Of a stretch of DNA of 64,000 nt, positions 33,948-45,255 are shown one piece after another. Under the pieces are notes generated by a model. That model was not told the DNA's origin. It did not search any database and was given only the letters and a program-made list of their open reading frames with translations. Each line of letters starts with the position of its first letter. Position 1 is the stretch's first letter. The stretch is from Pacificibacter marinus. Lineage in GTDB: Bacteria; Pseudomonadota; Alphaproteobacteria; Rhodobacterales; Rhodobacteraceae. The position numbers and the translations under genes were made by a program. The DNA is taken from positions 1 to 64,000 of the forward strand of contig NZ_JAHKPK010000014.1 of assembly GCF_018860665.1 (NCBI RefSeq), in the 5' to 3' direction.

Positions 33948-34217
33948 ATGCAAATGCGTATGAAGTGGGATCAAGACATCGACGCCATCGGCCTTTTGTG
34001 CCCTTTGCCTGTGCTCAAAGCGCGCAAGCGATTGTTGGCGATGAAAACCGGTGAGGTTTTGCGCCTTGTGGCGTCAGACCCTGCTGCAGTGATTGATGTG
34101 CCGCATTTTTGCGCCGAAGCCGGCCATAGGCTTTTGGCGCAAACCGTAGCAGACGAGGCGCAGTGCAAGCTTAGCCCGACTGGCACGGCGCATTTCTATT
34201 TCATCAAATGTGGTTAA
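33948..34217 (+). CDS. TusA-family sulfurtransferase-like protein
   Basis: An 89-residue SirA/TusA-fold protein with the defining CPLPVLKARK motif (about 18-27), whose cysteine carries a persulfide. It ends in FYFIKCG. TusA homologues deliver sulfur for tRNA thiolation or for molybdenum-enzyme cofactors; the adjoining mobA gene makes the latter attractive. The start is uncertain (ATG at 33948, 33954 or 33960, none with a good ribosome site). Its stop codon overlaps that of the convergent mobA. Confidence 0.8.
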   Translation: MQMRMKWDQDIDAIGLLCPLPVLKARKRLLAMKTGEVLRLVASDPAAVIDVPHFCAEAGHRLLAQTVADEAQCKLSPTGTAHFYFIKCG

Positions 34218-34828
34218 GTATCTTGCGTGCTTATCTGCTCAGCCAGTTTCAAATCTTCAGGTGTGTTGATGTTGAAGAACGGATCAAAGGCTGATGCTTC
34301 AAACATAATTGTGTCTGCGTTTTGTGCGTGGGTCCATTGCGTGACCTTGCGAGTGCCCGCCAATAGATCCGCACGCAGTTGATCGCGGGCATCCGTGGGC
34401 CAAATCCCAAACGTGGGATGCAGCCACAGTTGACCTGTCGCGTCGCGCGTACCAGCCAAAGCGATTTTGCCCTCGGTACGTTCTGCATTAAGGCGATTGG
34501 CAAGGTCGCGGGGAAAAAACGGGGTATCCACGGCTGTGGTGATCACGGCCTCATGCCCCAGACCTGCGGCCCAGTCCATCGCCGCTAAGATGCCGGACAG
34601 TGGGCCAAGATGGCCCTCTAATGGATCGGGGATCACCCGAACATTATATTGCGCAAATCGAGCGACATCCCCATTCGCATTCAGTGCAACAGGCGAACAT
34701 TGCGCTTTCAGACGCGCAAGCCCGTGTTCCAATAGCGTTTTGTCACCCAATTGACATAGCGCCTTGTCGCGTGCGCCCATGCGTATTCCGCGCCCTCCAG
34801 CCAAAATCAGAGCAGGTATTTTGATCAT
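34214..34828 (-). CDS. mobA: Molybdenum cofactor guanylyltransferase
   Basis: A 204-residue nucleotidyltransferase that joins GMP to molybdopterin to make the guanine dinucleotide cofactor used by NasA. The N-terminal GTP-binding motif LILAGGRGIRMGARDKAL (about 6-23) is intact. The start is taken at ATG 34828, the usual distance before LAGG; nine further codons are open upstream. Its 3' end overlaps the end of the tusA-like gene by 4 bases. Confidence 0.9.
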   Translation of the reverse strand: MIKIPALILAGGRGIRMGARDKALCQLGDKTLLEHGLARLKAQCSPVALNANGDVARFAQYNVRVIPDPLEGHLGPLSGILAAMDWAAGLGHEAVITTAVDTPFFPRDLANRLNAERTEGKIALAGTRDATGQLWLHPTFGIWPTDARDQLRADLLAGTRKVTQWTHAQNADTIMFEASAFDPFFNINTPEDLKLAEQISTQDT

Positions 34829-34980
34829 CGCTGGATTGTCCGGATTGCTGGTCATTGGTGCGGTCCATATGCAAGGCGCTCAATTTGGCGCGAAGCGCTC
34901 TTATATGCAAGGGGTTTCAGGATTCAGTTTCATCATCATAGAGAGCAACCTTGCGCGCTTCGATTAAAAAATAGGCGTTG

Positions 34981-35057
34981 GGCCATAATTTTACACAGTA
35001 CCTCCCTGCGTTGACTTTACAACGCAAAGCCCCTGTGACCCTTGTCAAATTATGGCC
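34981..35057. promoter_or_regulatory. Nested inverted repeat spanning the nasT start codon
   Basis: Three inverted repeats are nested around one centre: GGCCATAATTT (34981-34991) with AAATTATGGCC (35047-35057), CACAG (34994-34998) with CTGTG (35033-35037), and GCGTTG (35008-35013) with CAACGC (35020-35025). The outer right arm contains the nasT ATG (35052-35054). In RNA this would fold into one long interrupted hairpin hiding the start codon; in DNA it could be an operator. The repeats are seen; the function is inferred. Confidence 0.55.
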
Positions 35058-35636
35058 AATACTCTTTCCGTTATCATTGTCGAACCCGATCCCGCGCGTG
35101 CGCAGCTTATCATCGATAGCCTGTGCGATGCGGGCGATTACCATGTGCATGTCATCGCTGAACCCACAGGTTTGGCGCGTCATATCAAAGCGCATAATCC
35201 AGACATCGTGTTGATCGATGTCGAAAGCCCTTCACGGGATACGCTCGAAGAACTTACACTTGCATCTGGCCCCCTGGATCGTCCTGTGGCGATGTTCGTG
35301 GACCGTTCAGATGATGGTCTGTCCACGGCCGCGATCGAGGCGGGGGTCTCAGCTTACGTGGTCGACGGTCTGCAAAGTCAGCGTGTGAAACCTGTAATTG
35401 ACGCGGCCATTGCGCGGTTCCGTATGTTCCAACGGATGCGTACGGAGCTGGCGGAAACCAAGCGCGCTTTGGAAGAACGTAAAGTCATTGATCGCGCAAA
35501 GGGGATGCTGATGCGTGCCCGCGGGATTGGCGAGGACGAAGCCTATGCGCTTTTACGCAAGACCGCGATGGATCAAGGTAAACGCGTGGCTGATGTTGCC
35601 AACGCGTTGGTGACCGCTGCGGGGCTTTTGGCATGA
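35052..35636 (+). CDS. nasT: NasT-type ANTAR antitermination regulator
   Basis: A 194-residue two-domain protein: an N-terminal receiver-like domain (DIVLIDVES, about 51-59) and a C-terminal ANTAR RNA-binding domain (about 125-190, VIDRAKGMLMRARGIGEDEA). In nitrate-assimilating bacteria NasT binds a two-hairpin leader RNA and stops a terminator from forming; without nitrate it is held by NasS. Exactly such a leader lies downstream at 36909-37027. It overlaps nasS by ATGA. Confidence 0.92.
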   Translation: MANTLSVIIVEPDPARAQLIIDSLCDAGDYHVHVIAEPTGLARHIKAHNPDIVLIDVESPSRDTLEELTLASGPLDRPVAMFVDRSDDGLSTAAIEAGVSAYVVDGLQSQRVKPVIDAAIARFRMFQRMRTELAETKRALEERKVIDRAKGMLMRARGIGEDEAYALLRKTAMDQGKRVADVANALVTAAGLLA

Positions 35637-36808
35637 AGGGCACGGTTCTCTCTGTTGGTTTCATGCCGCTGGTGGATGCAGCACCACTGATTGTTGCACA
35701 AGAAATGGGGTTCGCTGCCGAAGAAGGTATCGCACTGGATTTGCGCCGCGCGCCATCGTGGTCATCTTTGCGGGATATGCTCAGTTTTGGCCAAGTTGAG
35801 GCGGCACATATGTTGTCACCAGTGCCTGTTGCTTCTGCTTTGGGACTAGGTGGAGCACATGCAAAACTGTCTGCAGTCTCGGTTTTATCCATAAATGGGA
35901 CTGTTATTGGTGTTTCCAATGCTTTGGCGCAGAAAATGCGCGGGCAGGGGCACAGTTTTGATTTCCGCGATGCTTATGCCGCGGGTAATGCGCTGATTGC
36001 GGCTGCAGGGGCGCGGTTGCGCATCGGCGTGCCATTTCCGTTTTCGATGCATGCGGAACTTTTGTATTACTGGCTATCGGCTTTAGGGCTTCCCGCGCCG
36101 CAGGGCGTCGATATTAAAACGGTCCCCCCGTCGTTGATGGCAGAGGCTATCAAGGCGGGCGAGATCGACGCTTTTTGTGTAGGGGAACCTTGGGGGTCTA
36201 TCGCTGTGGAAAACGGCGTTGGTGAATTGTTATTGCCCGGATCCGCGATATGGTCCTTTGCGCCGGAAAAAGTTCTTGCTGTGCGCTCTGATTGGGCTGA
36301 ACAAGAAACGGCCCTGATGGGGCGGTTGATCCGGTCTGTATGTCGCGCTGGGCGGTGGCTGGCTGATCCGTCATCGCGCCTTTTGCGGTCCGAACTTTTG
36401 GCGCGTCCTGAATACCTGAACATGTCTGCTGACATTTTGGACCGGTCCTTTGATGGGCGGTTGGTGATTTCCAAAGCGGGTGTTGAACGTCGCGTAGATC
36501 AATTCATGGAATTCAACACAGGGGCGGCTTGTTTTCCGTGGCGATCCCAAGCGGAATGGATTGGTGGTCAGCTCGCTGCGCGTTTGGGGCTTGATCGCCC
36601 TGCGGCTTTAGCTGCTGCAGGATCGGTGTTTCGATCTGATCTATATCGCGCCGCACATGCCCGAACATCCGCAGATATGCCGATTGCATCGAGCAAAGTT
36701 GAAGGCGGTGTCGAGGTGCCAACAGCCGTTGCATCAGAATCAGGTCAGATCATTTTGCAGCCTGACCGGTTTTTCGATGGGCGCGTTTTTGAGCCAAATT
36801 TGGGCTAG
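35633..36808 (+). CDS. nasS: NasS-type cytoplasmic nitrate sensor
   Basis: A 391-residue homologue of the nitrate-binding protein NrtA without a signal peptide, so it stays in the cytoplasm. Shared features with the NrtA at 37091 include SVGFMPLVDAAPLIVAQEMGF at the N-terminus (interrupted here for brevity at residue 26) and FCVGEPWG near residue 180. NasS binds NasT when nitrate is absent and releases it when nitrate binds. It overlaps nasT by 4 bases. Confidence 0.9.
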   Translation: MKGTVLSVGFMPLVDAAPLIVAQEMGFAAEEGIALDLRRAPSWSSLRDMLSFGQVEAAHMLSPVPVASALGLGGAHAKLSAVSVLSINGTVIGVSNALAQKMRGQGHSFDFRDAYAAGNALIAAAGARLRIGVPFPFSMHAELLYYWLSALGLPAPQGVDIKTVPPSLMAEAIKAGEIDAFCVGEPWGSIAVENGVGELLLPGSAIWSFAPEKVLAVRSDWAEQETALMGRLIRSVCRAGRWLADPSSRLLRSELLARPEYLNMSADILDRSFDGRLVISKAGVERRVDQFMEFNTGAACFPWRSQAEWIGGQLAARLGLDRPAALAAAGSVFRSDLYRAAHARTSADMPIASSKVEGGVEVPTAVASESGQIILQPDRFFDGRVFEPNLG

Positions 36809-36862
36809 AGCTTAAATAATAAGCAAAACTACCGAGGGTTTTGCTGCTGTTGAAAAAACATT

Positions 36863-36961
36863 CCGTGATGCATTGCGGACTTCGCATCAAAACGGTCCAC
36901 TGAACTCAGTCGAAGGCAATGGCGCCACGACGCAGAATTATGTTTCCAGTGATGGAATACG
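36863..36961 (+). ncRNA. ANTAR-type antitermination leader (two hexaloop hairpins)
   Basis: Two hairpins show the ANTAR-target hallmark, a six-base loop with A first and G fourth. P1 (36909-36931): GTCG, internal loop, GGC, loop AATGGC, GCC, CGAC. P2 (36941-36961): TGTTTCC, loop AGTGAT, GGAA, one bulged T, ACG. A 9-base linker separates them and a strong terminator begins 10 bases after P2. P2's 3' strand contains ATACG, the same five bases as the terminator's left stem, so both can pair with CGTAT on the right side. A further hairpin (TGATGC/GCATCA with CCG/CGG, 36863-36895) lies upstream. NasT, encoded just upstream, is the expected binder. Confidence 0.85.
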
Positions 36962-36971
36962 AAGAGCAAAG

Positions 36972-37027
36972 CCGCTCGATACGTTCACCCTCCTCCTCCC
37001 GGGTGGGTCGTATCGGCGGTTTTTTTT
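36972..37027 (+). terminator. Regulated terminator of the nas leader
   Basis: A long stem CCGC(T)CGATACG with CGTATCGGCGG (36972-36983 with 37009-37019, 11 pairs, one bulge) is extended by CACCC/GGGTG (36986-36990 with 37001-37005) and followed by eight T. It lies 64 bases before nrtA. This is a strong intrinsic terminator that must be overcome to express the operon, the logical target of NasT antitermination. Confidence 0.9.
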
Positions 37028-37090
37028 GTGTTTGAGGTCGGTGTGCCGAGCAAGCCACCCTCAAGCGGATGACGACAAAGGGACACGGTA

Positions 37091-38458
37091 ATGAAGAAAC
37101 TACTTATTGGCCTCATCGCCAGCACAGCACTCGCAGCACCCGGTTTTGCCGAAATGCTAGATCTTGAAAAAGACGAACTGACATTTGGCTTTATCAAATT
37201 GACCGACATGGCACCGCTCGCTGTTGCATACGAGCAGGGCTTCTTTGATGACGAAGGTCTGTTTGTCACATTGGAAGCGCAAGCCAACTGGAAAGTGCTT
37301 TTGGATGGCGTGATCGACGGCACACTGGACGGTGCGCATATGCTGGCGGGTCAGCCTTTGGCGGCCACAATCGGTTACGGCACCGAAGCGCATATCGTCA
37401 CGCCATTCTCAATGGATTTGAACGGCAATGCGATCACCTTGTCGAACGAGGTTTGGGAAACCATTAAGCCGACTTTGCCAACAGACCCTGATGGCAAAAT
37501 CTCGCACCCTATTTCAGCTTCCGCTTTGAAACCTGTGCTTGACGATTACGCTGCTAAAGGCAAGCCGTTCAACATGGGCATGGTGTTCCCAGTGTCCACG
37601 CATAATTATGAACTGCGCTACTGGTTGGCAGCGGGTGGTATCAACCCTGGATACTACTCACCTGAAAACGTCTCCGGTCAAATCGGTGCAGAAGTCTTCT
37701 TGTCTGTGACGCCCCCACCTCAAATGCCAGCGACGTTGGAAGCGGGCACGATCGACGGTTATTGCGTTGGGGAACCGTGGAACCAGCAAGCCGTGTTTAA
37801 AGGCATCGGCGTGCCTGTGATCACCGATTACGAACTTTGGAAAAACAACCCAGAGAAAGTGTTCGGCATCACCAACGAATTTTCTGAAATGTACCCGAAC
37901 ACAACCAAAGCTGTGGTCAAGGCGCTGATCCGCGCTGCGATGTGGTTGGACGAAAACGACAACGCCAACCGTCCTGAAGCGGTGGAAATCCTGTCACGTG
38001 CCGACTATGTGGGCGCCGATTACGATGTGATTGCGAACTCTATGACGGGGACGTTTGAGTATGAAAAAGGCGATGCGCGCGAGGTTCCAGACTTCAACGT
38101 GTTCTTCCGTCACCACGCCACATACCCGTTCTATTCTGACGCTGTTTGGTACCTGACGCAGATGCGTCGCTGGGGTCAAATTGCCGAGGCCAAGCCTGAT
38201 AGCTGGTATGATGAGGTTGCGAAATCTGTTTACAAACCAGAGATTTACCTCGAGGCAGCAAAGCTTTTGGTCGAAGAAGGTTTGGCAGATTCAGCTGATT
38301 TCCCTTGGGACTCTGATGGCTATAAAGCGCCAACGCCAGCTGAGGACATCATCGATGGTATCGAGTTCAATGGTGCCACGCCAAATGCTTACTTGGAAAG
38401 CCTGCCGATTGGCCTGAAAGGCGAACAGATCGTCTCAGGTTCAGACATCAAAGGTTAA
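37091..38458 (+). CDS. nrtA: Nitrate ABC transporter, periplasmic binding protein
   Basis: A 455-residue NrtA/CmpA-family protein with a signal peptide (about 1-20, cleaved after GFA). Conserved nitrate-binder segments include [20 protein letters not shown] and YCVGEPWN. It binds nitrate in the periplasm and delivers it to NrtB. AAAGGGACACGG precedes the start. It is the first gene after the regulated leader. A perfect 8-bp hairpin follows its stop before nrtB. Confidence 0.92.
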
Positions 38459-38515: not shown

Positions 38516-39610
38516 ATGACTGCCATTGACCCACATACCTTGGACGCAGATAGCATTGCGAAGTCCAAAGAGGCAAAGCGCGCCAGACTGTTCACCCGTA
38601 TCAACAAAGCGGATAAATGGTTTCAAGTGATCGGCCTGAGCTGGATGACCCCGATTTTGAAAGCGCTCGCGGGCGACAATCCACGCGCGCAAGGCAAGGA
38701 AATTTGGCGCCTTTTGGGTGTGCCTGTCTTGGCGATCATCGGATTTTTACTGCTTTGGGGCGTTATGGCACCCAAGGTCGTGACCTCTCTTGGGGCGATC
38801 CCCGGACCGGCAGCTGTCTGGGTCGAGGCAAAGAACCTTCACGCAGATGCGATTGCAAAATCGGAAAAGAAAGCCAGTCATGAAGAACGTGTGACAAAAC
38901 GCAACGAGCGCTTTATTGCGAATGGTCAGCCTGACAAAGTTAAGGACATTCCATATACGGGGTCGCCGTCTTACTACACACAGATTTGGACCTCGATCAA
39001 AACGGTGTTCTTTGGCTTCTTGATTGGTTCTGTTATCGCCATTCCTTTGGGCATCTTTGCAGGCCTGTCACCTTATGCGAACTCAGCCATAAACCCGTTG
39101 GTACAATTGTTTAAACCTGTATCGCCGCTGGCGTGGTTGCCGATTGTGACCATGGTTGTCTCTGCCGTCTACACCACGAACGATGGCATGTTTTCCAAGT
39201 CGTTTTTGGTATCCGCGATCACGGTGACGCTCTGTTCGCTTTGGCCCACGTTGATCAACACGGCGATGGGGGTGGCCACCATCGACAAAGATTTGATTTC
39301 TGTCTCTAAAGTTCTGAAAATGAACACATACAGTAAAATCACCAAGCTGGTTTTGCCCTCTGCTTTGCCGTTGATTTTCACCGGCTTGCGCCTGTCATTG
39401 GGTGTGGGCTGGATGGTTTTGATCGCTGCTGAAATGCTGGCGCAGAATCCCGGATTGGGCAAGTTCGTTTGGGATGAATTCCAAAACGGATCCTCGCAAT
39501 CTTTGGCGAAAATCATCGTTGCGGTGCTGACCATCGGTATCATCGGGTTCTTGTTGGACCGTGTGATGTTCGCACTGCAATCCCTGACAACTTTCTCGAA
39601 CAACCGGTGA
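38516..39610 (+). CDS. nrtB: Nitrate ABC transporter permease
   Basis: A 364-residue inner-membrane permease of the NrtB/SsuC type. A soluble, lysine-rich N-terminal part and one helix near 65-85 precede a loop and five or six membrane segments. The EAA-like loop for the ATPase is at about 250-275 (GVATIDKDLISVSKVLKMN). It follows TTTTTAAGGATCGCCCC. Confidence 0.9.
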   Translation: MTAIDPHTLDADSIAKSKEAKRARLFTRINKADKWFQVIGLSWMTPILKALAGDNPRAQGKEIWRLLGVPVLAIIGFLLLWGVMAPKVVTSLGAIPGPAAVWVEAKNLHADAIAKSEKKASHEERVTKRNERFIANGQPDKVKDIPYTGSPSYYTQIWTSIKTVFFGFLIGSVIAIPLGIFAGLSPYANSAINPLVQLFKPVSPLAWLPIVTMVVSAVYTTNDGMFSKSFLVSAITVTLCSLWPTLINTAMGVATIDKDLISVSKVLKMNTYSKITKLVLPSALPLIFTGLRLSLGVGWMVLIAAEMLAQNPGLGKFVWDEFQNGSSQSLAKIIVAVLTIGIIGFLLDRVMFALQSLTTFSNNR

Positions 39611-39614
39611 TCTC

Positions 39615-41306
39615 ATGAGCATTTTAACGTTCGAAAACGTCAACAAAGGCTTCGGCAACGGGCTGACGCGTCAAGAAGTTCTCAAGGACATTTCCTTGGA
39701 TGTAAAAGAAGGTGAATTCCTTGCCATCCTAGGGTTCTCTGGCTCTGGAAAGTCCACGATCATGAATATGGTCGCAGGTCTGGAAAAGCCCGACACAGGC
39801 AGCGTGACCTTCAAAGGTCAGCCGATTGAAGGCCCCGGCCCAGAACGCGGTTTGGTGTTTCAGTCCTATTCTTTGATGCCGTGGTTGACGGTCAAAGGGA
39901 ATGTCCTATTGGCGGTTCAAAGCGTCTTTCCAAAGCTGTCCAAGGCTGAGCAAAGCGACAAAGCGGATCACTACATCAATATGGTTGGGTTGGGGCACGC
40001 GTCAGCGCGTCGCCCTGCGGAATTGTCCGGCGGGATGCGTCAACGTGTGTCTGTGGCCCGTGCTTTGGCGATGGACCCTGAGATGCTGTTGCTGGACGAG
40101 CCATTGTCTGCGCTTGATGCTTTGACACGTGCGAATTTGGCCGATGAGATTTTGGATATTTGGGAGCAGGACAAAAAGACCTGTATCTTGATCACCAACG
40201 ATGTGGACGAAGCCATTTTACTGGCGGATCGCATTGTGCCACTCAATCCTGATGGCACGTTGGGTGAGCCTTTTGTGGTGAATATTCCACGTCCACGGGA
40301 TCGTGGGGCGATGAACAACGATGTGACGTTCAAAGCCTTACGCGTTGCTGTGACGTCTTACTTGATGGATGTGGGGATCACCGCCAAACACGAAGAATCG
40401 CGCATCCTGCCAAATGTAACGCCGATCCATTCTGTGCCTGCGGCTGTGACCAAAGCCCAAGAAGGCATGATCACAGATCGTTACCTTGATTTCTCGCAAA
40501 TCCATAAGATTTACCCGACCCCCAAAGGGCCGCTCACTGTTGTGGAAGACTTTGATCTTAAGGTGAACCGTGGCGAATTTATTTCAGTTATCGGCCACTC
40601 TGGTTGCGGCAAATCTACTGTTTTGACGATGGCGGCAGGTCTGAATGATATCTCGAAAGGTGTCATCAAACTTGATGGGTATGAGGTGCGTGGCGCGGAC
40701 CCTGAACGCGCGGTTGTGTTCCAATCGCCGAACCTGTTCCCTTGGCTCACAGCCAAAGAAAACGTCGCCATCGGTGTGCATAAAGTCTATCCCAACGCCA
40801 GCCAAGCTGAACGCCAAGATGTGATCGAATACTATTTGGAACGTGTGGGGCTCGCGGACGCGATGGACAAAGAAGCGCATTCTATGTCCAACGGTATGAA
40901 ACAGCGTGTCGGAATCGCTCGCGCCTTTGCTTTATCGCCCAAATTGCTGCTGCTTGATGAGCCCTTCGGTATGCTTGACAGTCTGACACGGTGGGAATTG
41001 CAAGAGGTGTTGATGGAAGTGTGGGAACGCACAAAAGTCACCACGATCTGTGTCACGCATGACGTGGATGAGGCGATTTTGCTGTCGGACCGTGTTGTGA
41101 TGATGACCAATGGGCCACAGGCGACAATCGGCAAAATCACCAATGTTAATCTGCCACGACCACGCACCCGCAAAGCGCTGCTTGAGCACCCTGATTACTA
41201 TCACTACCGCCAAGAGGTTCTCGATTTCTTGGAAGAGTACGAACACGGTGCCAAACCAAAACCAAAGGTGCAAATGCCTGCCGTGAAATCAGTCGCAGCC
41301 GAGTAA
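39615..41306 (+). CDS. nrtC: Nitrate ABC transporter ATPase, two fused NBDs
   Basis: A 563-residue protein holding two complete ATPase domains (about 1-250 and 285-530), in place of separate nrtC and nrtD genes. NBD1: Walker A GFSGSGKST (40-48), signature LSGG (about 137-140), Walker B LLLDEP, but the switch histidine is N195 (LITNDVDEA). NBD2: Walker A GHSGCGKST (about 327-335), Walker B LLLDEP and H482 intact, but the signature is MSNG (424-427). In the expected head-to-tail arrangement one composite ATP site is fully canonical while the other lacks both the switch His and a normal signature. It ends with a lysine/proline-rich tail. Confidence 0.9.
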   Translation: MSILTFENVNKGFGNGLTRQEVLKDISLDVKEGEFLAILGFSGSGKSTIMNMVAGLEKPDTGSVTFKGQPIEGPGPERGLVFQSYSLMPWLTVKGNVLLAVQSVFPKLSKAEQSDKADHYINMVGLGHASARRPAELSGGMRQRVSVARALAMDPEMLLLDEPLSALDALTRANLADEILDIWEQDKKTCILITNDVDEAILLADRIVPLNPDGTLGEPFVVNIPRPRDRGAMNNDVTFKALRVAVTSYLMDVGITAKHEESRILPNVTPIHSVPAAVTKAQEGMITDRYLDFSQIHKIYPTPKGPLTVVEDFDLKVNRGEFISVIGHSGCGKSTVLTMAAGLNDISKGVIKLDGYEVRGADPERAVVFQSPNLFPWLTAKENVAIGVHKVYPNASQAERQDVIEYYLERVGLADAMDKEAHSMSNGMKQRVGIARAFALSPKLLLLDEPFGMLDSLTRWELQEVLMEVWERTKVTTICVTHDVDEAILLSDRVVMMTNGPQATIGKITNVNLPRPRTRKALLEHPDYYHYRQEVLDFLEEYEHGAKPKPKVQMPAVKSVAAE

Positions 41307-41311
41307 CCAAC

Positions 41312-42607
41312 ATGGATGCGAAAAAACTTGTCATCATCGGCGCAGGAATGGCCCCCGGTCGATTGCTTGATCATTTGATCGCGGCTGATCCGCAAGCTTT
41401 TGATGTCACGCTGTTCAACGCAGAAAAGCGTGGCACTTATAACCGTCTTATGCTGTCGCCTGTCTTGTCTGGCGAAAAGACCTATGCGGATATCGTGACT
41501 CATGATGACGTTTGGTACGCCAAGCATGGTGTGACGTGCCGATTTGATGAGCGCGTGCTGTCGATTGATCCAGTTGCCAAAATGGTGGTCGGGGAAAAGG
41601 GCAGTGTTGCCTATGACAAGCTGGTGATCGCGACGGGATCAACGCCATTTATGATCCCGATTCCGGGGCATGATTTACCCGGCGTGATCGCCTATCGCGA
41701 TCTTGAAGACACCGAGGTTATGATCGCGCTTGGCCGAAAAACTGACGCACGCGCTGTTGTGATCGGTGGCGGTGTTTTGGGGCTTGAGGCTGCAGCCGGC
41801 ATGGCTGCGCGCGGGGTCAACGTGACGGTGGTGCACAATTCAGGCCATGTCATGAACCGTCAACTCGACGCACCCGCAGGTGGGTTGCTGAGAGCTGATC
41901 TTGAAGCGCGGGGTATACAGGTGCTTTGCAATGCCGCGTCAAAGCAAATCGTAGCGGGTGCAGATGGTCGTGTGCGGGCTTTGCAATTGATTGATGGCAC
42001 AGAGATTGCTTGTGATCTTTTGGTGATGGCTGTTGGGATCAGACCCAATGTCTCCGTCGCGGCTGACGCAGGTTTGAACGTAGACAAGGGCGTTGTTGTC
42101 GATGATCACATGCAGACCTCAAACCCGAATATTTTCGGCTTGGGCGAATGTGTGGAACATAACGGTGCGTTGTTTGGCTTGGTGGCCCCGCTTTATGATC
42201 AAGCCGAGGTTCTTGCCAAAACACTGCTGGGTCAAAGCGCGCAGTTTGTGCCTAAAGAGCTGTCGACCAAGTTGAAAGTCACCGGTTGTGATTTGTTCTC
42301 TGCCGGAGATTTCGAAGATGGTGATGATCGCGAAAGCATCGTGTTTCACGACAAAATACGGCGTGTCTACAAGCGGTTGGTGATCAAGCAAAACAAACTT
42401 ATCGGTGCCGTTCTTTATGGTGAAACTGCCGATGGCGCGTGGTTCTACCAACATATCACAGCTGGCACAAATGTGGCGTCATTGCGTGATCAGCTCATAT
42501 TCGGACCTGCTTTTGATGCAGATCACACGCAACTGCCTCAGTCTGCGATCACGTCAGACATCGCGCGCCCCGCGTCCATTTCGATGATTCAAGAAAGCCT
42601 ACAATGA
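41312..42607 (+). CDS. FAD/NAD(P)H-dependent oxidoreductase of the nitrate operon
   Basis: A 431-residue flavoprotein with two dinucleotide-binding folds (LVIIGAGMAPG near 6 and AVVIGGGVLGLEAA near 150) and a rubredoxin-reductase-like C-terminal domain. It matches the N-terminal half of NirB but has no siroheme or 4Fe-4S nitrite-reductase part. Between the transporter and nasA, and overlapping nasA by ATGA, it most likely passes electrons from NAD(P)H to NasA, whose C-terminus carries a 2Fe-2S domain, i.e. a NasB-like role. A nitrite reductase partner elsewhere is the alternative. Confidence 0.82.
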   Translation: MDAKKLVIIGAGMAPGRLLDHLIAADPQAFDVTLFNAEKRGTYNRLMLSPVLSGEKTYADIVTHDDVWYAKHGVTCRFDERVLSIDPVAKMVVGEKGSVAYDKLVIATGSTPFMIPIPGHDLPGVIAYRDLEDTEVMIALGRKTDARAVVIGGGVLGLEAAAGMAARGVNVTVVHNSGHVMNRQLDAPAGGLLRADLEARGIQVLCNAASKQIVAGADGRVRALQLIDGTEIACDLLVMAVGIRPNVSVAADAGLNVDKGVVVDDHMQTSNPNIFGLGECVEHNGALFGLVAPLYDQAEVLAKTLLGQSAQFVPKELSTKLKVTGCDLFSAGDFEDGDDRESIVFHDKIRRVYKRLVIKQNKLIGAVLYGETADGAWFYQHITAGTNVASLRDQLIFGPAFDADHTQLPQSAITSDIARPASISMIQESLQ

Positions 42608-45255
42608 CACTGCCTTGCCAATCAAACGAAACGCGGTCCACTTGCCCTTATTGCGGGGTTGGCTGCGGCGTATTGCTGAAATCTGACGATCAAGGCGGGT
42701 TGAGTGTGCGGGGCGACCCTGAGCATCCTGCCAATTTCGGGCGTTTGTGTTCGAAAGGGTCTGCTTTGGGCGAAACTGTGTCCCATGCAGGCCGCTTGTT
42801 GTCCCCACAAATTGACGGTGTCGACTCTGATTGGGACACAGCGTTGGATTTGGTGGCGCAAAAGTTCAAACAGACTATCGCAGACCACGGGCCAGACAGC
42901 GCGGCATTTTACGTCTCGGGTCAGTTGCTGACCGAAGACTATTACGTTGCCAATAAACTGATGAAAGGCTTCATCGGATCTGCCAATATCGACACCAATT
43001 CGCGGCTGTGCATGGCCTCTACCGTGGCGGGGCACAAACGTGCTTTTGGCACAGATACAGTGCCCGGCACTTACGAAGATCTGGAAGCCGCCGATCAAAT
43101 CGTGCTGGTCGGATCAAATTTGGCATGGTGCCATCCGGTCTTGTATCAACGCATCGTGGCAGCGCGTGAAAAGAACCCCGATTTGAAAATCATCGTCGTC
43201 GATCCACGGCGCACCGCAAGTTGCGATCTGGCTGATTTGCATCTGCCTTTGCGCGTGGGCACCGATGTGGCTTTGTTCAACGGGTTGCTGGCTGAAATCG
43301 CATCACAAGGTGCCAGTGATCAGAAATACCTAACCCATGTGAACGGGGCAGAGGCGGCGATTAAAGCTGCGCGCAAAGGCGATCCAACTGTCACGGACCT
43401 TGAACCTGAGATATTGCAGCGTTTCTATGACATGTGGATCGGCACGCCGAAAACGGTCACGGTGTTTTCCCAAGGGGTCAATCAGTCCTCTGCGGGCGCA
43501 GACAAGGTCAACGCGATCTTGAACTGTCACCTTGTGACTGGACGGATTGGCACAAAAGGCTGTGGGCCGTTTTCTGTCACAGGACAGCCCAACGCCATGG
43601 GCGGACGCGAGGTCGGTGGTTTGGCCAATATGTTGGCCTGTCATCTGGACATCGAAAATCCTGCGCATCATGCGGCAGTCTCAACGTTTTGGCAGACAGA
43701 TCGTTTGTCGCCAAAGTTGGGCCTGAAAGCTGTCGATATGTTCGAGGCCGTGGGTGATGGGCGTATCAAAGCGCTCTGGGTCATTCACACAAATCCGGCG
43801 GTCTCGATGCCGGATGCCGACAAAGTGGTTGCAGCGATGAAATCTTGCGATTTTGTTGTTGTCTCAGACATCACTGCCGCCACAGACACGGCGCGTTTGG
43901 CGGATGTGTTGCTGCCCGCAAGCGCTTGGGGTGAAAAAGACGGCACAGTTACCAATTCGGACCGTACTATATCGCGTCAACGCCCCGCTATGGCGCCCCC
44001 TGGGAAGGCACGGGCTGACTGGGACATCTTGGCCGATGTTGGACGTCGCATGGGCTGGGGCGATGCCTTTGATTTCAAAACGCCTGCTGATATTTTTCGC
44101 GAATATGCGGATATGTCGCGCCTTGGTACGGTCTTTGGTAAGGACTTCGATATCTCTGCTTTGAGCGACATCGACAATATTGCCTATGATAGTCTTGTAC
44201 CGCAGCGCTGGCCGATCACGCATGCGTGTGAAGGCGGTCGGTTCTTTGCCGATGGGCAGTTCTTCACGGCGGATGGCAAGGCCAACATGCTGCCGCTGAC
44301 ATATCGCGCACCCGCTGCCAAAACTGGAAAACGCTATCCTTTGCGGATGAACACAGGTCGTATTCGTGATCAGTGGCACACGATGACCCGCACGGCGCTG
44401 TCTCCACGCTTGTCGGCGCATTTGGCCGAGCCCTTCATCGAAATTCATCCCGATGACGCGGAAGCCGCAGGGATCAAGCCATCGATGCTTGTGCAGGTCA
44501 AAAGCCCCGCGGGGTCGGGAATTTTTCGGGCAATGATCACGAGCCGCGTGCGACAAGGTGATGTGTTTGCTCCGATGCATTGGACTGGCGAGACCGCCCC
44601 CAGCGCGCGTGTTGATGCGCTTGTGCCGCCTGTGGTTGATCCTGTCTCAGGCCAGCCGGAAAGCAAAGCCTCTGTGGTGGCTGTGTCGCCTTATAAGGCC
44701 GAATGGTACGGCTTTGCTGTGTCGTCGGATGAGGTTGCGCCCAATTGCGATTATTGGGCGCGCGCCAAAACCCGCACAGGTTACCGTTTGGAATTGGCTG
44801 GGGCTGTCACACCTAAAGATTGGGAAGCCGAGGCGCGTCGCATGTTCGATCTGCCTGACATGCCAGCGCAAACAATGATTGATGCAAATTCTGGTACAGC
44901 ACGTCTGGCATTTTATGATGGCGCCGTGCTCAAGGCAGCTTTGTTTATCTCGAAAACACCTGTGGCTGTGATGCGCGACTATCTTGCCACTTTGCCCACA
45001 ACAGATGCGCCCCATGCGATTGCGGGCGTGTCGCCTTCCGATCAGCCCGATCCGGGCGCTGTCGTTTGCTCTTGCTTTAATGTGGGCATCAATACAATTG
45101 TGACGGCGATAGAGACCGATGGCCTGATGAGCGTCGAGGCCGTTGGCAAAGCCTTGCAAGCGGGTACAAATTGTGGCTCTTGCAGACCAGAAATTGCGGA
45201 CCTGCTGTTGAAACTGCGGGAGGCGCAGACACAAGCGAAAGAGGCAGCAGAATGA
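42604..45255 (+). CDS. nasA: Assimilatory nitrate reductase catalytic subunit
   Basis: An 883-residue molybdenum enzyme reducing nitrate to nitrite in the cytoplasm. The N-terminal 4Fe-4S motif is C14-x2-C17-x3-C21-x27-C49. The Mo-bis-MGD binding domains fill about 60-800. A C-terminal BFD-like 2Fe-2S domain uses CSC (C822, C824) and CGSC (C857, C860), as in Klebsiella-type NasA. There is no signal peptide. It needs the cofactor made with MobA (34214-34828). Its stop overlaps the next gene by ATGA. Confidence 0.94.
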   Translation: MTLPCQSNETRSTCPYCGVGCGVLLKSDDQGGLSVRGDPEHPANFGRLCSKGSALGETVSHAGRLLSPQIDGVDSDWDTALDLVAQKFKQTIADHGPDSAAFYVSGQLLTEDYYVANKLMKGFIGSANIDTNSRLCMASTVAGHKRAFGTDTVPGTYEDLEAADQIVLVGSNLAWCHPVLYQRIVAAREKNPDLKIIVVDPRRTASCDLADLHLPLRVGTDVALFNGLLAEIASQGASDQKYLTHVNGAEAAIKAARKGDPTVTDLEPEILQRFYDMWIGTPKTVTVFSQGVNQSSAGADKVNAILNCHLVTGRIGTKGCGPFSVTGQPNAMGGREVGGLANMLACHLDIENPAHHAAVSTFWQTDRLSPKLGLKAVDMFEAVGDGRIKALWVIHTNPAVSMPDADKVVAAMKSCDFVVVSDITAATDTARLADVLLPASAWGEKDGTVTNSDRTISRQRPAMAPPGKARADWDILADVGRRMGWGDAFDFKTPADIFREYADMSRLGTVFGKDFDISALSDIDNIAYDSLVPQRWPITHACEGGRFFADGQFFTADGKANMLPLTYRAPAAKTGKRYPLRMNTGRIRDQWHTMTRTALSPRLSAHLAEPFIEIHPDDAEAAGIKPSMLVQVKSPAGSGIFRAMITSRVRQGDVFAPMHWTGETAPSARVDALVPPVVDPVSGQPESKASVVAVSPYKAEWYGFAVSSDEVAPNCDYWARAKTRTGYRLELAGAVTPKDWEAEARRMFDLPDMPAQTMIDANSGTARLAFYDGAVLKAALFISKTPVAVMRDYLATLPTTDAPHAIAGVSPSDQPDPGAVVCSCFNVGINTIVTAIETDGLMSVEAVGKALQAGTNCGSCRPEIADLLLKLREAQTQAKEAAE

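Follow-up and report, generated by a model that had tools for sequence, protein, structure and literature searches.

The closest described systems to the leader analyzed here are the dual-hexaloop antiterminators EutV/eut, NasR/nasF, and AmiR/amiE, reported to carry hairpins whose hexaloops have A at position 1 and G at position 4, herein referred to as A1 and G4 (PMC3369931; PMC8934654). In the published ANTAR switch, the terminator carries at its 5' base a mini-hairpin, P2 (PMC3369931). For the eut leaders of E. faecalis, gaps of 5-12 nt between hairpins were reported. In the EutV system, a 14-nt linker sharply cuts induction in vivo, and a 20-nt extension abolishes antitermination in vitro. 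In the EutV structure, the protein grips G4, and A1 has no specific contact (PMC8934654). The use of the two hexaloops by an ANTAR dimer is unsettled: simultaneous binding was proposed (Ramesh 2012; PMC3369931), as opposed to a stepwise hand-over from the recruitment hairpin to the antitermination hairpin (Walshe 2022; PMC8934654).

Leaders under the control of NasT have been described in other bacteria. In Paracoccus denitrificans, the nasA leader RNA is bound by NasT, the NasS-NasT complex is dissociated by nitrate or nitrite, and free NasT was estimated to contain about six monomers (PMC3795266). Expression drops severely upon a three-base change in the hairpin HI, which lies 137 bp upstream of nasA, and replacement of HI in the chromosome abolishes growth of Paracoccus on nitrate (PMC5424462). 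When 3 bp were changed in the hairpin HII, located 91 bp upstream, induced expression was little reduced and expression on ammonium was doubled (PMC5424462). In Bradyrhizobium diazoefficiens, the NasT regulon (nosR, nirA, and others) is subject to NasT-dependent antitermination at leader hairpins (PMC6759348).

The DNA analyzed in this study, herein referred to as the window, is a stretch of 64,000 nucleotides from Pacificibacter marinus (contig NZ_JAHKPK010000014.1). Its nitrate locus follows mobA (34214-34855, minus strand) and has the same order as the nasA locus of Paracoccus: nasT, nasS, leader, and transporter genes, all on the plus strand. The gene nasT (35052-35636) encodes a protein of 194 aa with a receiver-like domain and a C-terminal ANTAR RNA-binding domain. 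The ANTAR domain scores 77.2 bits in Pfam (cut-off 27.3), and the receiver domain (Response_reg) scores 27.5 bits, under the Pfam cut-off of 30.2. By eye, the receiver domain seems to be devoid of the conserved lysine. These two features of the receiver are consistent with control by NasS and not by phosphorylation. The gene nasS (35633-36808) overlaps nasT by 4 bases and encodes an NrtA-like nitrate sensor of 391 aa (Pfam NMT1_2, E 1.3e-61). Judged by eye, the N-terminus of NasS has no signal peptide and that of the nrtA product has one. The locus thus has the makeup of a NasS-NasT regulator, with adjacent genes, a NasT with an ANTAR domain, and an NrtA-like NasS.

The alignment of NasT with EutV (6wsh) spans residues 7-187, and the ANTAR domain of NasT aligns with both EutV and NasR (4akk). 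By hand mapping with a 2-residue offset, the EutV residues reported to coordinate G4 (R142, E160, and Y164) and the plug residue M172 are retained in NasT, as are K143 and R177; three positions are changed (K147 to R, N173 to D, and R175 to G). NasT is the sole ANTAR protein found in the genome (3.9 Mb, 95% complete). Control of the leader by NasT is therefore the natural reading, since this only ANTAR protein found is encoded next to the leader.

The gap between nasS and nrtA (282 bases) houses the leader. The first controlled gene, nrtA (37091-38458), encodes a nitrate-binding protein (Pfam NMT1_2, E 5.4e-94). It is followed on the same strand by genes for the permease NrtB (38516-39610), a fused ATPase NrtCD (39615-41306), a NirB-like NAD(P)H reductase (41312-42607), and a NasC-like assimilatory nitrate reductase (42604-45255). 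These four genes were assigned by Pfam and NCBIfam matches, and the names in the operon are approximate, as several NCBIfam matches are under the curated cut-offs.

Three hairpins with A1/G4 hexaloops were found in a row in the leader, all on the plus strand. The first, P1, is located at 36909-36931 (GTCG-AA-GGC[AATGGC]GCC-A-CGAC) and has its hexaloop at 36918-36923. The middle hairpin, herein named Pm, is located at 36944-36957 (TTCC[AGTGAT]GGAA, hexaloop at 36948-36953). The third, P2, is located at 36964-36977 (GAGC[AAAGCC]GCTC, hexaloop at 36968-36973); its loop and 3' strand double as the base of the 5' arm in an intrinsic terminator at 36968-37027. The 5' arm of this terminator starts from AAAGCCGC, its 3' arm extends to 37019, and eight T follow at 37020-37027. 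The predicted stem includes 18 pairs as far as 37019 and 4 more pairs formed by the first four T with AAAG; a single base is left unpaired on either side. The terminator folds at -31.9 kcal/mol (z -5.7), a value equaled by none of 200 shuffles. P1 and Pm taken singly are unremarkable, as 17 and 41 of 200 shuffles, respectively, fold as well; their significance comes from conservation and not from the folding of a single sequence. The loop-to-loop steps are 30 nt from P1 to Pm and 20 nt from Pm to P2. The gaps between the stems are 12 nt for P1-Pm (10 nt if a bulged two-pair extension of the Pm stem is counted), 6 nt for Pm-P2, and 32 nt for P1-P2.

Thus, the leader resembles the dual-hexaloop antiterminators in its A1/G4 hairpins and in the overlap of P2 with the 5' arm of the terminator (PMC3369931; PMC8934654). 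An ANTAR leader is expected to have at least two such hairpins of at least three pairs, joined by a linker of about 5-12 nt. The single gaps of 6 and 12 nt are within this range, which is also the one reported for the eut leaders of E. faecalis, and the P1-P2 distance exceeds it. The described dual systems have two hexaloops, whereas here there are three. Since the two-loop motif is contained within the three, the leader is a variant of this group and not an outsider.

The preliminary description of this DNA, made from the sequence without database searches, had proposed an ANTAR-type antitermination leader before the nitrate operon and beside nasT and nasS, and this proposal is supported. The two hairpins it named, with loops AATGGC and AGTGAT, are present as P1 and Pm, and so is the terminator with eight T, for which 11+5 pairs had been counted instead of 18+4. 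The linker given there as 9 bases proved to be 12 nt long, or 10 nt with the bulged extension. The hairpin at 36944-36957 had been taken for P2. The true P2, the best-conserved part of the leader and the hexaloop that competes with the terminator, was absent from that description, so its dual leader was not complete.

A scan of 36500-37400 against the Rfam covariance models (release 15) gave three matches with E values of 3.2-7.9, at chance level, none of them to an ANTAR-type RNA. The blastn search of the leader DNA against a plasmid collection gave no match, and the leader sequence is highly divergent overall. A covariance model built here from relatives (R1, see below) finds a single leader in the genome, the one in the window, among 150 of 791 first-look candidates scored; several NasT operons are reported for B. 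diazoefficiens. The pattern GAGCANNGNNGCTC occurs at five places in the genome, and the four others have no array and terminator by eye.

In minimum-energy folds, which do not include kinetics, transcript prefixes ending at 36978, 36990, 37000, and 37010 form P1, Pm, and P2 together, and in prefixes ending at 37019 and 37027 the terminator displaces P2. We consider it probable that this is a nitrate-responsive antitermination leader of the nrtA-nrtB-nrtCD-nirB-like-nasC operon, operated by NasS-NasT through a P2/terminator switch. This estimate covers the switch of NasT, P2, and terminator as a whole; the part of Pm is shared with two variants weighed below. Without nitrate, NasT would be held by NasS, the 5' arm from AAAGCCGC would pair with the far arm, and the polymerase would halt at the eight T. 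With nitrate, NasS would release NasT. In the emerging RNA, P1, then Pm, and then P2 would fold in turn; NasT would be recruited at P1 and Pm and next would keep P2 closed. Closed P2 would keep positions 36968-36977 out of the base of the terminator, and transcription would proceed into nrtA. P1 would be the first loop for NasT and would serve in recruitment. Pm probably bridges P1 and P2, because the single gaps fit the range of 5-12 nt and the direct distance of 32 nt is beyond the spacings at which the EutV system failed. We infer the binding of NasT at each loop, its dependence on nitrate, the order of binding, and the bridging by Pm from this arrangement.

A search for NasS in 248 genomes of the family Rhodobacteraceae gave matches in 103 genomes, and 90 places were read (L002-L091). 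Genomes with only a weak and probably nrtA-type match (G001, G047, and G237) and truncated or weaker NasS places (G006, G008, G015, G022, G057, G120, G126, G166, G177, and G193) were excluded. By sequence patterns, a P2-type site followed by a T-run was found in 82 of the 90 leaders, 76 of which also have P1. For the alignment, 74 leaders were used, leaving out L090, which is too similar to L089, and, by choice, L077. The covariance model R1 was built from these 74. It matches 82 of the 90 leaders at E 0.001, including 74 by construction; as compared with the pattern-chosen 82, it adds L015, which has no TTTT run, and drops L059. Seven places are in neither set (L030, L062, L065, L066, L068, L087, and L091). 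By eye, L030 and L062 have another sequence after NasS and lack a leader of this kind in the part read, and their control element seems to have been lost or moved. In a separate scan, R1 matched 57 of 80 named NasS loci with E below 0.001, including those of Ruegeria, Roseovarius, Salipiger, and Celeribacter. Among the Paracoccus and Rhodobacter loci, only L223 passes the cut of E 0.001.

The covariation of stems, proposed earlier as a check, was found in these relatives. In the 74 aligned leaders, compensating changes were counted in 208 cells, vs. 81.5 ± 7.8 in 500 shuffles, a control that ignores relatedness, and at most 96 in a slid control, which preserves relatedness. In the model-fitted alignment of 82 leaders, the count was 245, vs. 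92.1 ± 9.6 for shuffles. The stems thus show compensating changes, although the number of pairs with any two-sided change is near that of shuffles and not clearly above chance: 12 vs. 10.2 in the 74 leaders (reached by 40 of 500 shuffles) and 12 vs. 10.6 in the 82 leaders (106 of 500). In the 74 relatives, 8 of 9 pairs of the P1 stem have a two-sided change and 75.7% of cells are paired, the outer pairs least. Every cell of the P2 stem is paired, and 2 of its 4 pairs have a two-sided change; the outer pairs covary, from GAGC/GCTC to AAGC/GCTT and AGGC/GCCT. The weakest covariation was found for the Pm stem (2 of 4 pairs, 74% of cells paired).

In all 82 pattern-chosen leaders, including that of the window, positions 7-14 of P2 take part in at least 5 terminator pairs; these leaders were chosen by the P2-type site and the T-run and not by pairing. 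When the loop was left free, the pattern RAGC-N6-GCTY gave 83 places in 78 of the 90 leaders, including a few P1 hairpins shaped like P2; all 83 have G4, and 81 have A1. G4 of P1 and of P2 is kept in 81 of 82 leaders each in the model-fitted alignment, and A1 in 79 of 82 each, the near-invariance of P1 being partly by construction, as it was picked with a pattern demanding A1 and G4. In Pm, G4 is kept in 73 of 82 leaders and A1 in 44, with G at this position in 33 more.

The Pm loop was also recovered independently of the model. Model-free folding of the stretch between P1 and P2 gave a loop of 6-7 nt with G4 in 51 of 76 leaders, vs. 8.7 ± 3.1 (maximum 17) in 60 sets of dinucleotide shuffles. 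Leaders dissimilar to the training set gave the same result (23 of 39, vs. 4.5 with a maximum of 9 in 100 shuffle sets); this test set contains the 40 of the 57 R1-matched loci that are unlike the training leaders, minus one near-copy. As a whole, however, this stretch has only a small folding advantage over shuffles (mean z -0.69), with 54 of 76 leaders below the shuffle mean. Pm is looser than P1 and P2: its fitted stem halves are mostly 7 nt apart, and G4 is absent in 9 of 82 leaders. A strict hexaloop with A or G at position 1 and G4 was found for Pm in 24 of 82 leaders (2.5 in shuffles) and for P1 in 77 of 82 (3.8 in shuffles). Retention of G4 with relaxation of A1 to A or G would be the look of a Pm loop that is used, though less strictly.

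The scan was extended to NasS loci from further families in the class and the phylum, 77 of them in the main scan. From the 77, a set of 42 loci was chosen, many of the rest having no such leader in the stretch of sequence covered. The set holds loci in which the overlap of P2 and terminator was seen, L106 and L107 being added by eye; in L113 and L157 the overlap was seen in one of two scans only. L099, the near-copies L159, L164, L166, L249, and L254, and the doubtful L136 and L142 were left out. In this chosen set, which is not a census, 15 leaders have three loops, 15 have Pm and P2, 11 have P1 and P2, and one has neither upstream loop; the assignment varies slightly between scans, as L265 is three-loop in one scan and P1+P2 in the other. 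By chance, both upstream loops are expected in 0.11 leaders on average (maximum 2 in 200 shuffle sets), vs. 15 of 42 in real sequences. The Pm+P2 leaders have loop distances of 18-25, and the P1+P2 leaders have distances of 41-54. Full three-loop leaders outside the family were found in L126, L128, L100, L103, L138, and L144, and three A1/G4 loops were seen by eye in Rhodobacter capsulatus SP108 (L182). Among 12 P1+P2 leaders, many have a middle hairpin (mean z -1.6), the loop of which is frequently without G4. In the family f13, L101 and L109 have no middle hairpin and L162 has only a weak one; thus, Pm is not universal. A class-wide search with R1 under stricter filters matched 7 of 385 genomes, R1 being too family-specific for a wide census. 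Judged by eye, its matches L096 and L097 resemble chance hits, and L098 has a leader with a different layout.

The Paracoccus leader itself can be read in the same terms. In P. denitrificans DSM 413 (L184), the hairpin GGCCCGGCGC[AACGGC]... and a hairpin with the loop GACGAT end 138 and 92 bases before the ATG, respectively, and CGC[AATGAT]GCG lies between the two. Since the 3' ends at -138 and -92 match the published -137 and -91, HI corresponds by position to P1 and HII to the third hexaloop. The leader region (4280-4449 in L184) thus has three G4 hexaloops and no clear U-tract terminator. The available text of the Paracoccus work describes two hairpins, HI and HII, with no hexaloop P2 in a terminator, whereas the window has three hexaloops. 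Additionally, the first gene in Paracoccus is nasA and its terminator is unclear in the sequence, whereas in the window the first gene is nrtA and the terminator is strong. The mild phenotype of the HII change speaks against a strict P2 model, which would not predict it, although termination may also have been weakened by this change.

Four other explanations were weighed against this probable reading. The preliminary description had taken P1 and the hairpin at 36944-36957 for a complete dual motif that excludes the terminator through a shared ATACG, pairing alternatively with CGTAT. Both of these loops are indeed A1/G4, and ATACG is present at 36957-36961 and 36979-36983. The repeat is not conserved, however: the sequence preceding P2 has a 5-mer in common with the terminator arm in 14 of 82 leaders, as various 5-mers, vs. 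a mean of 15.7 when terminator arms were swapped between leaders (147 of 200 swaps reach 14), so the mutually exclusive pairing is at chance level. Moreover, the Pm stem at 36954-36957 lies outside the terminator, and it is the canonical P2 (36964-36977), the hairpin with the highest conservation, that lies within the terminator arm. This version is highly improbable. Even less credit is due to a conserved attenuator under some factor other than NasT. Such a factor finds room in that we infer the NasT dependence of this leader, but the leader adjoins nasTS, carries A1/G4 hexaloops, and lies next to the gene for the only ANTAR protein found in the genome, and in Paracoccus both EMSA and genetics point to NasT (PMC3795266; PMC5424462).

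The two remaining alternatives are variants of the NasS-NasT switch and differ from it in the role of the upstream hairpins. NasT may bind only P1 and P2, with Pm as a spacer hairpin whose loop letters are irrelevant. The stricter loops of P1 and P2, the P1-P2 loop distance of 47-51 in 56 of 82 leaders, the middle hairpins without G4 in several leaders outside the family (e.g., L111 and L252), and the essential role in P. denitrificans of HI, equivalent to P1 by position (PMC5424462), all agree with a spacer. No particular loop would be required of a spacer, yet G4 of Pm is kept in 73 of 82 leaders, the Pm loop is found without model fitting in 51 of 76 leaders vs. 8.7 in shuffles, and Pm and P2 form the sole pair with A/G1 and G4 found in 15 of the 42 chosen loci outside the family. 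We regard the spacer as unlikely overall, though deserving serious consideration. It is rather doubtful that, conversely, Pm and P2 form an ordinary dual motif, with P1 dispensable or acting only as a 5' stabilizer. The loop distance of 20 between Pm and P2 equals that of the two-loop leaders outside the family (18-25), but the P1 loop is stricter than that of Pm, 8 of 9 pairs of the P1 stem have two-sided changes, and the matching hairpin HI is essential in P. denitrificans (PMC5424462).

Taken together, the most likely reading is that NasS-NasT acts on this leader by nitrate-dependent antitermination, as in Paracoccus; its conserved layout of three hexaloops goes beyond the published dual model. 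In the literature searched, which covers few subscription papers, no three-hexaloop ANTAR leader was found. We tentatively suggest, with less than even confidence, that the ancestral nitrate leader of Alphaproteobacteria was a three-loop array in which P2 was fixed and two upstream loading loops, about 50 and 20 nt away from P2, passed NasT stepwise towards the polymerase or seated a NasT oligomer, and that lineages then kept both upstream loops or lost one. If this array reading is true, the leader would be a multi-step ANTAR switch in which the number and spacing of loading loops set sensitivity. Leaders with two upstream hexaloops at fixed steps, together with natural relatives in which only one of these two was found, provide a ready-made test of the simultaneous and stepwise models; under the stepwise model, the upstream pair is predicted to act one after the other, and each loop to be replaceable in part. 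The analysis also gives a coordinate-level map of the switch for a nitrate operon of Rhodobacteraceae, whose leader is matched by no Rfam model.

Some leaders of other layouts were seen by eye. L106 possibly has four G4 hexaloops. In L098 and L114, a hexaloop leader with a terminator is located near nasS, in L098 between nasT and nasS. This position suggests that in these lineages NasT may control the expression of its own partner.

The region upstream of P1 differs from the leader in character. A third hairpin at 36863-36895 had been proposed as a second RNA input; it corresponds to the inverted repeat TGATGC-N12-GCATCA at 36866-36889 (plus strand). As RNA it is not supported, since 30 of 200 shuffles fold as well and the same region in relatives is no more structured than shuffles: the 60 nt 5' of P1 fold at -12.78 vs. 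-12.60 kcal/mol for shuffles in 76 relatives, with 37 of the 76 below the shuffle mean, and thus show no excess of RNA structure. The repeat is probably promoter or operator DNA and not part of the RNA switch, and perhaps a candidate NtrC site. In the equivalent of about 36820-36905, the word TGCAGCA was found in 24 of the 76 relatives, vs. 2.1 in shuffles, and 10 of 16 occurrences of TTGAC cluster at -40 to -31 before P1. Words of the TGCAGCA type and TTGAC are probable candidates for activator and promoter sites of the nas operon. A consensus scan of 36780-37095 gave no sigma-70 promoter. Soon after the nasS stop, at 36822-36845, there is a hairpin, AGCAAAAC-TACCGAGG-GTTTTGCT, which is terminator-like on the minus strand; it is possibly the end of the nasTS transcript. 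In leaders of other families (L098, L106, L107, L108, L118, and L139), TGGCAC-N5-TTGC/CTGC sites were seen by eye just upstream of the leader, which we take to be sigma-54-like sites; in the family of the window, TGGCAC occurs once in 76 leaders.
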